Below, piece by piece: positions 1 to 18,650 of a stretch of 35,944 nucleotides of DNA. Source of the DNA: Candidatus Obscuribacterales bacterium (GTDB lineage Bacteria; Cyanobacteriota; Vampirovibrionia; Obscuribacterales; Obscuribacteraceae); assembly GCA_020050685.1 (NCBI GenBank), contig JAGVKG010000028.1, positions 1 through 35,944 on the forward strand, given 5' to 3'. The notes under the pieces are model-generated. The model saw only the letters and a list, made by a program, of their open reading frames with translations. It was not told the DNA's origin and searched no databases. Every line of letters begins with the position of its first letter. The first letter of the stretch is position 1. The translations under genes were made by a program, and so were the position numbers.

Positions 1-305
<305 letters not shown>

Positions 306-12077: not shown

Positions 12078-12653
12078 ATGGGTGAATCATTTGAAGACAC
12101 AATTAAATCGAGCAGGCTACCATCAATTAAACATTTAGTCACCACAGAAGAGATGGCGAGCTACCATAAATACGAAAGGCAAATGCGGGAGACCGCAAGG
12201 GCCCAAATCGGGGCTTCGTTTGTACTGCGTAACTTCAGAGTACTGGATCAGCGGGATGGAACCGAAGATGGCAAAGTTGCCTCTAAGGGGATCAAGGCTT
12301 ATGAAGAACAACACAAGGGTAAGCTGTTTTGTGCCAATATTATTTCCGATCTCAAATCGGATCTCTTTGAGACAATGCTGAAGGAGTCCAACTTGGGACG
12401 CCGCTTGCCCAGCAACGAACTCACCCAGAAAGAGGTGCAGGCATTTTTAAGCAAGAAGATCCATGAGTTTGATAAACTCATGGTGAATTATCCTAGGGCA
12501 CCTGAAGGATCTCCCTGGAATTCTCCTGATCGCTGGCGCACCCACCACATCAGCCATGTAGGGACGCAATTCCTTCATAGTAGCTTGCGCGGTAACTTAA
12601 ATTTAGAAAAGACAACTATAACCGTGCCATACGGAATATTTGATTCGAAGTAA
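12078..12653 (+). CDS. Unknown 191-aa protein
   Basis: I do not recognise this protein. It is hydrophilic, charged and mostly helical in appearance for the first 150 residues, has no signal peptide or membrane segment, and ends in a short Thr/Val-rich beta-like tail. A segment with NSPDRWRTHHISHVG (about 148-162) has three His and could bind metal, but that is a guess. A strong AGGAGG at 12062-12067 precedes two ATGs: 12073 (5-base spacing) opens only a 21-codon frame, and 12078 (10-base spacing) opens this gene. A 10-bp hairpin at 12676-12706 lies 22 bp beyond the stop. Confidence 0.7.
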   Translation: MGESFEDTIKSSRLPSIKHLVTTEEMASYHKYERQMRETARAQIGASFVLRNFRVLDQRDGTEDGKVASKGIKAYEEQHKGKLFCANIISDLKSDLFETMLKESNLGRRLPSNELTQKEVQAFLSKKIHEFDKLMVNYPRAPEGSPWNSPDRWRTHHISHVGTQFLHSSLRGNLNLEKTTITVPYGIFDSK

Positions 12654-12667
12654 CAACGCTCACGATT

Positions 12668-12706
12668 GAAAACAAAAGCACCACCCAGTTTCCTGCGGTG
12701 GTGCTT
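12668..12706 (-). terminator. Intrinsic terminator of the candidate RNA
   Basis: AAGCACCACC (12676-12685) pairs perfectly with GGTGGTGCTT (12697-12706). Read on the minus strand, the stem is followed by TTTTGTTTT, so it should stop leftward transcription. It has no T-run on the plus strand but may still protect the 3' end of the gene ending at 12653. Confidence 0.7.
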
Positions 12707-12868
12707 AGCTACTGTCTGGCTGCCCCTTGCGAATTGGGCTCAGTATTTCTCTACGCTTCAGCCAGTCCTTCACGTAAAGCGGGCTCACTTACTACTGTTT
12801 CCAGTTAGCGCCAACTTGGCGTTCCCGTAAGGCCCCTCGGCTCATCGTGCTCAACCAATGGTGTGCAC
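12668..12868 (-). ncRNA. Candidate structured RNA of about 200 nt, unnamed
   Basis: A non-coding minus-strand unit has its own promoter (12875-12904) and an intrinsic terminator (12668-12706). Several helices can be drawn: a 5' hairpin GTGC...GCAC enclosing ACC/GGT, a stem CTTAC/GTAAG extended by GGGC/GCCC that encloses a GAAA-loop hairpin ACTG-GAAA-CAGT, and an H-type pseudoknot. In the pseudoknot, CTTTACG (12773-12779) pairs with CGTAGAG (12749-12755), and CTGGCTG (12759-12765) pairs with CAGCCAG (12716-12722). It does not match 6S, tmRNA, SRP or RNase P signatures that I know. The size is compatible with a trans-acting sRNA. It lies downstream of the permease gene but has a separate promoter. 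Confidence 0.42.
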
Positions 12869-12874
12869 TCACCG

Positions 12875-12904
12875 TTTATAAATACAGTCTACCGTAGTGC
12901 GCAA
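12875..12904 (-). promoter_or_regulatory. Promoter of the candidate RNA
   Basis: On the minus strand TTGCGC (12899-12904), an 18-bp spacer and TATAAA (12875-12880) form a sigma-70-like promoter. The start would fall near 12868. There is no ORF directly behind it, which supports a non-coding product. The rest of the gap, 12905-12985, holds nothing I recognise. Confidence 0.45.
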
Positions 12905-12985
12905 ATATTGGAAGTAGCAAATTGCACAATTAATGGCGAGTTGCATATGTGCTCGATATCTAAGACATTGTTTTGCAGATTATTT

Positions 12986-14272
12986 TTAGTGGCACGATGG
13001 TTCTTCTGGATCTTTCTTTGGAGGAACCGCCTCAGAACTTGGAGATGAATGTGTTTGGTCAGCATTTTGATGAGAGCAGCAATCGCCAATATTTGCCTTT
13101 GTGGTTTTCATGTGTGTAGATACACTTCCAGTTGAGGCGAGAAAGGCAAGCACCATGGCAGCTGTGCCAAAAAATAGGTTGAGGTAGAAAGTGTAGTTGA
13201 ATTCAAAGGACATCTTGTCCATTGGTGAGGCGTGACTAATTTGCGGCACAATTCCCAGACTGTTGAAAAGTAAATCGACAATAATTGCCGAAAGAACAAT
13301 GGTGGTGAACAAAACAAAAAATATATACGTTGCCAATTGTTTGCCAAAATATTTCTTGTATAAAGCAAGTATCGGCAAGACCAAAAGATCCGCGTAAATG
13401 AAGGCTATGACGCCGCCGAAGCTGATACCACCATGCCAAAGCACTGCTGCCATGGGTATGTTGCCAATTGAACAAACAAAGCTGGCAATCGCCAGGGCGG
13501 GTCCGATTAAGGCGTTTTCAACCAAACGAAGAAATGGCGGACCGCTCTGAACAAAAATCGTCTGCCAAACTGTCATTGGCACAAATGCGCTGAGTAGTCC
13601 GGCAATCAAAAATCCGATGATGATTTCTTTGCTCAGCATTTTCCACTCGTGCATAAATGCCTGAGCAATCTCAATTAAGCCTGAGCGTGTAGTTAGCTTC
13701 GCTTGCCAGCTTGGCGAGGGAGCCTTTTGGGAATCCGCCTGATGGGTTTGATGCTCGCCAACAGGAATGGTTAGCAAATTCTCTTCTCGATCTTTGGGTT
13801 GCAGATCCTTTGTTTGGAGATCTTTTGTCTGGAGATTTTTTGCCAAATATTTTGGATAAGTCAATTTGACGATAATCGACATGATTACAATCAAGAGTAT
13901 GCCGCCAAGCAATTCAGCTAAGACAAAGACTGGGCCCAAAAGAATCCATAAGACAAAGGAAAGCTCTAAGACCAGATTGGTTGAGGCAAACATGAAGGCA
14001 AGCGTTGGAATTAGGTGCGCGCCTTTTTGAAAGAGGCTTTTGCTCATGGCTACTGCGGCATAGGAGCACGACGATGAGGCGGCACCGGCCGCTGTGGCAA
14101 TGGCAATTCCCTTGAGTGAGGGCTCTCCTAGAAGACCGGCTATCTTTTCCTTTGGCACAACCACCTGAATTGCGGCTGACAAGATGAGCCCGGCAATCAG
14201 GGACCACAGTGTTGCCCAAAACATCAGGGCCGAATCAAGTAAGGCATGTCCTAGTGTATTTATGATGTCCAT
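12986..14272 (-). CDS. Permease of the DUF318/ArsP (UPF0718) family
   Basis: The 428-aa inner-membrane protein has two bundles of about four helices each (residues 1-135 and 215-335, plus a last helix at 360-380). The conserved half-motifs SSSCSY (66-71) and FVCSIGNIPMAAVLWHGG (265-282) identify the family, whose members export metals or organoarsenicals. The central cytoplasmic linker has a short internal repeat, LQTKDLQTKDLQPKD (147-161). The C-terminal tail carries Cys398, Cys399, His401, His408, Cys427 and His428, a likely soft-metal-binding tail, suggesting a metal substrate. No clear ribosome site precedes ATG 14272. No ArsR-type regulator is adjacent. Confidence 0.87.
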   Translation of the reverse strand: MDIINTLGHALLDSALMFWATLWSLIAGLILSAAIQVVVPKEKIAGLLGEPSLKGIAIATAAGAASSSCSYAAVAMSKSLFQKGAHLIPTLAFMFASTNLVLELSFVLWILLGPVFVLAELLGGILLIVIMSIIVKLTYPKYLAKNLQTKDLQTKDLQPKDREENLLTIPVGEHQTHQADSQKAPSPSWQAKLTTRSGLIEIAQAFMHEWKMLSKEIIIGFLIAGLLSAFVPMTVWQTIFVQSGPPFLRLVENALIGPALAIASFVCSIGNIPMAAVLWHGGISFGGVIAFIYADLLVLPILALYKKYFGKQLATYIFFVLFTTIVLSAIIVDLLFNSLGIVPQISHASPMDKMSFEFNYTFYLNLFFGTAAMVLAFLASTGSVSTHMKTTKANIGDCCSHQNADQTHSSPSSEAVPPKKDPEEPSCH

Positions 14273-15296: not shown

Positions 15297-18200
15297 TTAG
15301 CTGCCCCAGGCAGGAAAGCTAGCACAGGTTTTTTGGGAATCTTTTTCTGTCTCCAGTACGTAGAGCGCGCCTTGCTTGTTTAGTGCCTGCCATACGGCCA
15401 TCGTAGCAAAACCACCGATGCCATCATGGGTGTAGCCAGAAAAGAGACCCTGCGTAACCCATTGCAGGTTGCTCACTTGCAGTGTTGCAGAGCCACCACC
15501 TTTTTTCAATGCGGTATCTACTTTCGCTCGGTCACTGGCGCCGAGTTGACTGATGTGGGAAATCACAGCACGATCACGCCACATCTTCCTTTGGATTTGA
15601 TCGCGAAGGTTTTGTTTTGCTTGGTTGTTATACTTTCGCGCATCTCCATACATTTGCACCCAGGCCTCATTCATTTTCCCGTCGCCCTCATCTGCTGGTA
15701 CCGAATGAAGTTGTTTGCCGGCATACCAGTAAGTAATATTGCCTAACGAATCAATTTTTGCCTGCACGGCTGCCCAGGTATTGCCGTCACCGACAACATA
15801 GAATGCAGGTCTTGTCTTGCACAGCGGAACAGGGGTAAACTCCGGAGAAGGTGCCGGACAGCGCAGTGTCCATTCGGCGATGAGAGGGTAATCATTCCCA
15901 CCAACAGATTGTGTGCCATTCCAACCAGCAGCATGAGAGCTGTCATTGTAATAACCAGCATTTGAATCTAAGGCGCCATTGTTGCGTGCCATACAGTTCC
16001 AGATCAGGCTAGGTGAATCCTTGGCAGTAGTAATCAGAGAAGCGGTGTTTTGGTAGACGTATTGATTGGTTAGCACGTTGGCTCCGTAGCCGGTGTCCGT
16101 CGTGGCTAAGACTGCTACATTACCGCCACCGCCCGCGCTAGCATCTCCTTGCACGACGTAAACGTATTCAGTTTGATCTTGTGTGATCGAAGTTGCAGCA
16201 AGTACGGGCGGTAGGAAGCTGCTTCCATCAGGCAGTCCTCTACTTGCTTTCTGTGCATCTGGTCCGATAAATATCAAGGCACTGGCACCTTCTTTGTTGA
16301 CCGGAGTGCTCCAGTCATTGGGCGAGTTATTACCTTGTTGACCGGTACTGATTGCACCCTCGCCAAGCACTTGTTCGATGGTGGCAGACTTGGTTGGAGT
16401 ATAGAAAATATTGCCAGCGACTGCATAATTGTTATTGGGCATTTTCTTCACGCCTAAGGCCGTAAGGGTTTTTCTATCATTGAGCATCCCAGCAGCCAGT
16501 CGCAGAGCATAATCGGCATTGCGTATGGTGTTAATTGCTCTTTCGAGTTTTGTTTCCAGGCTCTTCAATAGGTTTTCTTGCTGGGCAATGCCGGCGCTAG
16601 CATCACCTGCGGTATCGTGAGCCAGTTGGGTCTTGTACTGAGTTATTTTATCTTCTGCTTCCTTTGCTTGTTGAGCTAACTTCTTGGCGGCAGACATTGC
16701 TGCATTGAAGGTTGCTCCCGCATGGTTATTTGTATCCATGAGAGCATCCCAGAACATTACGAGGGTTTCGGCAGGCTCGCCGTTGGTTGTAGTCACTTGT
16801 CCATCACGTTGTATGGAGACAACAAGACTGGTCTCCGGCAATGTTATTTGAGCTGGAACATAGCCAAAGACGTTGGCCAGCTGCCGACGGTAAAGTGCTG
16901 TTTGATTGGCTAAACTGGACAAGTTGCGCGGATCGCCTTTGCCATTGCTTGGAATGTTGAAGATGCCAAAGGATACGGGATGTAATGGTTCTTCTTCCGC
17001 ATAAGCGCCGGGAATAAAATCTTGAGCGAATTTATGAGTCTCATTTGTTTGAAGATAGGCAGACTTTGGTGTTTGTGAAAACGGCTTTGATAACTCAGTA
17101 ACGACTTTAGCTACATTGGGCCTTAAGTAGGCGTGTCTGAGCCAGTCGTACGCAAAAATGGACAGAGATACACTTGGATCGTCAGAGCCCCTTGATCGAT
17201 AAGACTTTGCTGTTAAACTCGTATTTTCGGAAGTAGTTGGTGCGCCCTGTACCTGATAGTAGATACCTGTTGAACCTGCCGGTGGACCATTCCAACCAGT
17301 ATAGGTACTTGCACTGCCAAGACTTGCGGTAGGATTGGACAAATTGGGAGAACCTGTCAGATTGATTTGCGAATGGTTCATGATTGAGCGTGGGCTAGTT
17401 ATGTCGACAAAGTCCGGCAATGAGGGCGGAGTAGTTTGAGGAAAACCGATTACTAAAGACCCGGACGCGAAAGATTGCCTCTGCGCACCGCACACGGCGG
17501 TGGCGATGATATTAAGTGTGCTTTTCATTACCTCTGGCTGCTCTTTCTCTTGCGGGCTTTTCATGTTGGCGGCAGACCTAATTTCTTGCTCTCCTGTTAC
17601 TTGGACCACAGATGGAGCCAGGTAGAGGCTTGCGTTGGTGTCGGTTGGATCGTATGACTCGTAATTGTCGTTGCTTACTAGAGAAGGAGCGTCTGCCATA
17701 GCGACAAGGATGATTGGCAAATTGTGCTTCGCGCCTGTCGGATCAGTAATATTGGTATCAATTGGCGTGTAGGCTTTGTAAAATTTGCTTGCCGTATCTG
17801 TTCCGTGATCGGTTGCTTTGCTGTCACCCTCCGGAATGGGAATGTTTGAACTGAAATTAGTGGTTGTAAACTGACCGGCTGTGATCTTTAAGTGCCCAAT
17901 GCGTTTGCCTTGAGCCATGTTGATTGCATTTTTATCGAAGATTGTTTCTACATCTGTCAAAAGGTCAATTCTATTGCCATCTCTGTCTTTAACATTATCC
18001 TTGTCGTATTTAGGGTACACAGCGCTAAGCACTTTTTTTCGTAACTTGGCTGAGTCGGACTGAGCCTTCGCCAGATCCTCTGCTGCGGCAACTTGCATGG
18101 CGCCGTTGCCTAGTTCATCAGCAATGATGGCGTCCAGTCTCACAGTAGCCAGTAATGTATTAATGCTGATAACCGGTCGCTTGCTTGCGCTTTGAGCAGG

Positions 18201-18434
18201 CTGATCTACCAAACCGACATTGCCGAAATAAGTCCCATCGCTTTGAGAGACAACTATTCTTGAAACGTCGATAGCTGCCTGCAAGGCGGCTGCGTCAACT
18301 GCATTTTGTGCTTCTTTGTGCGAGCCAATCAGTTGATGGAAGTTGATGACTAGAAAACTGATCATGAGAACGAGGATACCTAAACACACGATCGCCAGAA
18401 CGAACGTGCTGCCGCGTCGCCTTAGTGTACTCAT
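15297..18434 (-). CDS. Giant TadE/TadG-like surface protein
   Basis: The N-terminus (MSTLRRRGSTFVLAIVCLG) is of the TadE/TadG type: three Arg, a single hydrophobic helix (about 9-32) and then 'QNAVDAAALQAA', as in Tad pilus pseudopilin-like proteins. The remaining ~1000 residues should be outside the cytoplasmic membrane. They are rich in Ser, Thr, Asn and Gly, with a coiled-coil-like part near 580-640 and scattered Cys in the last 200 residues. No von Willebrand domain is obvious. At 1045 aa it is about twice the size of usual TadG proteins. The start at 18434 follows GAGGA; a TTG at 18512 would add 26 residues before the Arg cluster. No other tad genes are in the window. The function of the large part is unknown. 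Confidence 0.75.
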   Translation of the reverse strand: MSTLRRRGSTFVLAIVCLGILVLMISFLVINFHQLIGSHKEAQNAVDAAALQAAIDVSRIVVSQSDGTYFGNVGLVDQPAQSASKRPVISINTLLATVRLDAIIADELGNGAMQVAAAEDLAKAQSDSAKLRKKVLSAVYPKYDKDNVKDRDGNRIDLLTDVETIFDKNAINMAQGKRIGHLKITAGQFTTTNFSSNIPIPEGDSKATDHGTDTASKFYKAYTPIDTNITDPTGAKHNLPIILVAMADAPSLVSNDNYESYDPTDTNASLYLAPSVVQVTGEQEIRSAANMKSPQEKEQPEVMKSTLNIIATAVCGAQRQSFASGSLVIGFPQTTPPSLPDFVDITSPRSIMNHSQINLTGSPNLSNPTASLGSASTYTGWNGPPAGSTGIYYQVQGAPTTSENTSLTAKSYRSRGSDDPSVSLSIFAYDWLRHAYLRPNVAKVVTELSKPFSQTPKSAYLQTNETHKFAQDFIPGAYAEEEPLHPVSFGIFNIPSNGKGDPRNLSSLANQTALYRRQLANVFGYVPAQITLPETSLVVSIQRDGQVTTTNGEPAETLVMFWDALMDTNNHAGATFNAAMSAAKKLAQQAKEAEDKITQYKTQLAHDTAGDASAGIAQQENLLKSLETKLERAINTIRNADYALRLAAGMLNDRKTLTALGVKKMPNNNYAVAGNIFYTPTKSATIEQVLGEGAISTGQQGNNSPNDWSTPVNKEGASALIFIGPDAQKASRGLPDGSSFLPPVLAATSITQDQTEYVYVVQGDASAGGGGNVAVLATTDTGYGANVLTNQYVYQNTASLITTAKDSPSLIWNCMARNNGALDSNAGYYNDSSHAAGWNGTQSVGGNDYPLIAEWTLRCPAPSPEFTPVPLCKTRPAFYVVGDGNTWAAVQAKIDSLGNITYWYAGKQLHSVPADEGDGKMNEAWVQMYGDARKYNNQAKQNLRDQIQRKMWRDRAVISHISQLGASDRAKVDTALKKGGGSATLQVSNLQWVTQGLFSGYTHDGIGGFATMAVWQALNKQGALYVLETEKDSQKTCASFPAWGS

Positions 18435-18650
18435 AGAAATGTGTTCCTCGCTGAGACTGCCTGCCGAATGTGTCCAGTTACCCAACGCATCTTGGAGGAT
18501 ATATGCCCGCAATTGTGTTTTATTAAACTGTTCTCAGGAGAAATTAATCAAGTCTGGTTTCCCCTGTGCCATCTCGAATGGCGGTAGTTGAGCGTACTGT
18601 ATTGTGTACGAAGCGGAAATCAGATAGTCCAATTAATCATGCGGTAGTTA

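Follow-up and report, generated by a model that had tools for sequence, protein, structure and literature searches.

The minus strand around positions 12,668 to 12,904 of the window, as the whole stretch of 35,944 nucleotides analysed here is called, raises the question of whether it encodes an RNA of its own and, if so, of which kind. The original prediction described an independent structured non-coding gene, complete with a promoter and a terminator, that matched no class its author knew and perhaps represented a new RNA family. The gene itself is borne out by comparison, as detailed below. Its novelty must be rejected, since Rfam RF03041 (poplar-1) matches positions 12846-12705 (-) at 140.7 bits (cmscan, E 7.9e-32), which exceeds the gathering score (110.5 bits) by 30 bits, and the match spans model positions 1-141 of 141 with no truncation. 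The consensus helices of RF03041 are formed in the window copy, with a single pair flagged as non-standard in the alignment. The Rfam scan proposed as a check on the gene thus returned a known family and not 6S RNA; across 12600-12960, poplar-1 is the sole match up to E = 1, with no other class present. Judged by its sequence, the locus is a further member of poplar-1, a named family without characterisation, and not a novel RNA class. Rfam gives the type of RF03041 as ‘Gene; sRNA’. No paper in the literature searched mentions the family by name. The family was reportedly first described by Weinberg and colleagues in 2017, and we know of no function for it.

Support for the structure of the window RNA comes from comparison and not from single-sequence folding, which is only weakly unusual (z -1.82). 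For this comparison, 75 distinct poplar-1 copies were aligned on sequence alone. In an unsupervised covariation analysis the helix pairs score highest, the nested helices are recovered de novo by RNAalifold, and standard pairs occupy 97.0% of the 4064 cells of the full proposed structure. Changes on both sides occur at 45 of its 55 pairs, although the aligned copies are kin and such covariation counts are therefore not independent events. When partners are slid by 1-3 columns as a control, pairing falls to 35-40%. The core and its helices are located as follows.

12705-12846 (-): Rfam RF03041 poplar-1 core (cmscan, 140.7 bits)
12835-12832/12784-12781 (-): P2, part of the 12781-12835 domain, in which 91-100% of cells are paired, with compensatory changes
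12830-12827/12792-12789 (-): P2', same domain, pairing and compensatory changes
12816-12812/12807-12803 (-): hairpin P3, same domain, pairing and compensatory changes
12779-12773/12755-12749 (-): P4 hairpin, 92.4% paired, compensatory changes in 7 of 7 pairs
12765-12760 with 12721-12716 (-): pseudoknot between the P4 loop and the P5/P6 internal loop, 98.2% paired
12745-12742/12713-12710 (-): P5, 100% paired, compensatory changes
12739-12736/12725-12722 (-): P6, 100% paired, compensatory changes; loop with conserved GCAA

Two interleaved 7-bp helices had been predicted from the single sequence, at 12773-12779/12749-12755 and at 12765-12759/12722-12716 (CUGGCUG/CAGCCAG), with compensatory changes in both named as the evidence that would support them. 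Both lie where they were placed and are conserved, and such changes are found in each among the 75 distinct relatives. The pseudoknot that they form is real, but its description as H-type is too simple, as the P4 loop pairs with the P5/P6 internal loop. Because nested prediction cannot show pseudoknots, this pairing was tested separately: compensatory changes occur at five of its six pairs, 47 cells are doubly changed compared with 9.9 in shuffles, and slid versions are 5-43% paired. The seventh, 12759/12722, is in competition with one pair of P6. The helices drift in sequence among the copies, whereas certain unpaired residues are invariant, namely GnAAC (12825-12821) and GAnAC (12801-12797), the two conserved internal-loop strands between P2' and P3, and the CAA of the P6 loop. 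A divergent subgroup (L031, L041, L043, L049, L053, L075, L077 and L147) has replaced the P4 loop and pseudoknot sequences with retention of their complementarity.

The fold extends 5' of the first Rfam position. There, all copies carry, in this order, CGGUGA, a hypervariable hairpin, three free nucleotides and GAGCCG, either hexamer being in some copies a near variant; CGGUGA/GAGCCG itself occurs in 70 of the 75. The window copy reads CGGU GA GUGC...GCAC GAU GA GCCG, and is divided as follows.

12838-12874 (-): whole 5' kink-turn hairpin, assigned from its sequence signature; RNAalifold also predicts its stems de novo
12874-12871/12841-12838 (-): kink-turn NC stem, CGGU with GCCG
12870-12869/12843-12842 (-): kink-turn G.A pairs, GA with GA
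12868-12865/12850-12847 (-): kink-turn C stem, GUGC with GCAC
12846-12844 (-): kink-turn L1-L3 bulge, GAU

Bulge sizes of 0-7 were compared for C-stem pairing across the 75 copies. The C stem pairs with a bulge of 3 nt and with no other size (4.97 contiguous bp on average, at least three in 65 of 75), the remaining sizes giving a mean of about 1.5 contiguous bp or less. A 3-nt bulge together with G.A/A.G between two helices is the standard kink-turn arrangement, and the poplar-1 5' element has the sequence of such a kink-turn.

Outside the fold, 69 distinct upstream regions, anchored on the -10 box, yield the family promoter consensus TTAAAT-7-GGGGTAnT-19-GnTAnACT. In the window, the corresponding elements and the terminator are these.

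12928-12933 (-): upstream promoter element TTAATT (consensus TTAAAT); commonest base at 0.68-0.91 at these positions in the 69 upstream regions
12913-12920 (-): promoter box TTGCTACT (consensus GGGGTAnT), degenerate in the window copy
12886-12891 (-): -10 hexamer TAGACT (consensus GnTAnACT); first T, A and final T invariant in the 69 upstream regions
12668-12705 (-): intrinsic terminator, stem 12705-12693/12688-12677, 98.6% paired, followed by TTTTGTTTT, with a T-rich tail

The terminator is as originally proposed: its stem is conserved, and 11 of its 12 pairs show compensatory changes. The promoter was misplaced: the TATAAA at 12880-12875 that had been taken for its -10 box falls in the transcript start region, and the conserved -10 (TAnACT) aligns with TAGACT at 12891-12886. 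The transcript would likely begin at ~12879 and include the kink-turn 5' strand (12874-12869), which would be missing from a transcript beginning at 12868. In the genomes searched, the pattern with its 36-nt layout occurs essentially only before poplar-1, matches with other spacing lie, in those inspected, in unrelated sequence, and a reversed control pattern gives few matches. The whole promoter motif looks specific to the poplar-1 family (e.g. in L109, L110 and L117). The exact GGGGTAnT consensus is absent from the window's own genome. As the window box is degenerate and the copy single, its control may be weak or of another kind, weak expression being one possible outcome.

The window copy is the sole poplar-1 in its genome, yet multiplicity is common among its relatives: within the Obscuribacteraceae, 44 of 50 genomes carry 1-14 copies each, many of them several and often in tandem. 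Such arrays reach four copies in 3.5 kb (L109) and five copies in 4.2 kb (L110). Copies are often interrupted by contig breaks, as is expected for near-identical repeats. The six genomes of the 50 with no match indicate that poplar-1 is not essential to the lineage. Strong copies come almost entirely from Candidatus Obscuribacterales/Melainabacteria MAGs, and among 289 genomes of the class from outside the Obscuribacteraceae only three are positive, all from one other family of the same order. Within the class, poplar-1 does not extend beyond the order Obscuribacterales (Melainabacteria). A contig labelled Proteobacteria (L031, JAJPJO010000543.1) has two copies and may be a mis-binned Obscuribacterales contig. 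Wider spread was considered and set aside. In a phylum sample of 386 genomes the remaining matches are weak (20-24 bits); our own R1 model gave weak matches in small photosynthetic-type genomes and one distant family, and by eye these resemble chance matches in coding DNA. The named hits that a short DNA pattern gave in high-GC actinobacteria, among others, are mostly chance, a profile HMM finding no poplar-1 there, and four viral-contig hits of the same pattern have no model match. An orphan named RNA family is thereby tied to a definite host group, and a highly structured, multi-copy RNA that most members of the order retain is likely to be important to those cells.

The surroundings of the gene are not shared. 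Around 63 copies, neighbouring ORFs occur in all four orientations (22/21/11/9), there is no widely shared neighbour family, and the upstream genes differ in family and strand. This variation in identity and orientation argues that poplar-1 is an autonomous trans-acting gene and not a leader or 3' UTR. In the window, an ArsP-type permease gene (12986-14272 (-)) lies upstream on the same strand, and downstream a 191-aa ORF without a Pfam match (12078-12653 (+)) runs towards the RNA gene in convergent orientation. A free-standing sRNA is what the promoter, the terminator and the orientation of the neighbours would predict. Elsewhere (window 1-90 and 91-500), the contig opens with the 3' end of a 16S gene, which appears unlinked from 23S, neither a 23S gene nor a tRNA being found in the rest of the 36 kb (Rfam, ARAGORN). 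A 1071-aa ORF at 15297-18512 (-) has an N-terminal TadE/G-like (Flp pilus) domain.

What such an RNA might do must be approached from its architecture. Comparison shows its identity, structure and pseudoknot, the sequence signature of a kink-turn, its autonomous position and the multiple copies in relatives. On this basis, poplar-1 can be proposed to fold compactly and to act as a scaffold or regulatory RNA, presenting the GnAAC/GAnAC internal loop to a partner, a reading with roughly balanced chances. The kink-turn would bend the 5' domain and the pseudoknot between the P4 loop and P5/P6 would lock the 3' half, so that the whole RNA would form a single compact particle with the invariant loop between P2' and P3 on display. 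This loop probably binds a protein, the RNA acting as scaffold or sequestering it, or another partner. Output would be set by gene copy number, and also by a regulator or sigma factor reading the GGGGTAnT box. Taken jointly with the view of the locus as a poplar-1 gene of ~200-210 nt that has its own promoter and terminator and acts in trans, this proposal has, in our estimation, an even chance of being correct. A bolder form, which sees in poplar-1 a scaffold or catalytic RNA carried in multiple copies by the Obscuribacterales, with a kink-turn, a loop-to-internal-loop pseudoknot and an invariant GnAAC internal loop making up a functional core of an undescribed kind under a dedicated promoter system, appears improbable. 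The promoter signature and the invariant residues render the function of poplar-1 testable.

The main rival to the scaffold proposal, possible but clearly the less favoured, is a base-pairing regulatory sRNA whose GnAAC/GAnAC strands and P4 loop would pair with mRNAs or another sRNA, in the way that Yfr2 pairs with Yfr1 and Yfr10. Multiple copies, lack of synteny, conserved unpaired motifs and a family-restricted promoter motif all fit this model, being also features of the cyanobacterial Yfr2 genes, for which the promoter motif is CGRE1 (PMC6778093; PMC2662882). However, the conserved strands are short and sit within an elaborate fold, and divergent copies lose the P4 loop motif and retain the pseudoknot pairing instead. 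Homology to Yfr2/Cyano-1 was rejected, as RF01701 matches neither the window nor any of 21 relatives. Neither Hfq nor CsrA was detected in the window's own genome, which argues against both Hfq-dependent pairing and a role as a CsrA/RsmA sponge resembling the Rsm RNAs. The sponge, to which the 1-6 GGA motifs per RNA and the multiple, tandem copies might point, is largely refuted and is the least probable of all the readings: CsrA is present in only 2 of 21 genomes and missing from nearly all poplar-1-bearing relatives examined, and GGA is not invariant, loop A being GnAAC and both AGAAAC and GGCAAC occurring.

Scarcely more credible is a cis-acting element. The RNA does share its strand with the ArsP-type permease gene and lies downstream of it, and a 3' UTR of that gene had been named as the finding that would overturn the original prediction. 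Against this, or against an attenuator, the conserved promoter signature travels with the RNA beside unrelated genes on either strand, the terminator follows directly after the fold and the next downstream gene in the window is convergent; a riboswitch and a synteny-linked function were rejected along with the 3' UTR, as neighbours vary among copies. An RNA belonging to a mobile or repeat element spreading through the genome would account for up to 14 copies, for tandem arrays and for copies that lie at contig ends or are broken by them, and is very unlikely, though a little less so than a cis element. No neighbour family such as a transposase recurs, the genes between copies are varied, contig breaks would accompany any near-identical repeat, and the structure is under strong selection.

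The RNA can finally be set beside known systems. In common with RF03041, the window RNA shows a full-length match in sequence and secondary structure above the curated threshold. However, the 141 positions of that model start at the kink-turn bulge and end after P5, without the kink-turn 5' strand, promoter or terminator, and its displayed structure lacks the pseudoknot. The 5' kink-turn, pseudoknot, conserved terminator and promoter signature are additions to the Rfam covariance model, and the boundaries of the family are corrected. Standard kink-turns are found in riboswitches, rRNA and box C/D RNAs, whereas that of poplar-1 belongs to a free-standing bacterial sRNA; no L7Ae-type protein was detected in its own genome, and three weak domain matches were obtained among 21 genomes. 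The likeness to Yfr2/Cyano-1 (RF01701), from a neighbouring lineage, lies in the multiple non-syntenic copies, the conserved unpaired motifs and the family-restricted promoter motif, although that RNA, at about 80 nt, is built on another fold.
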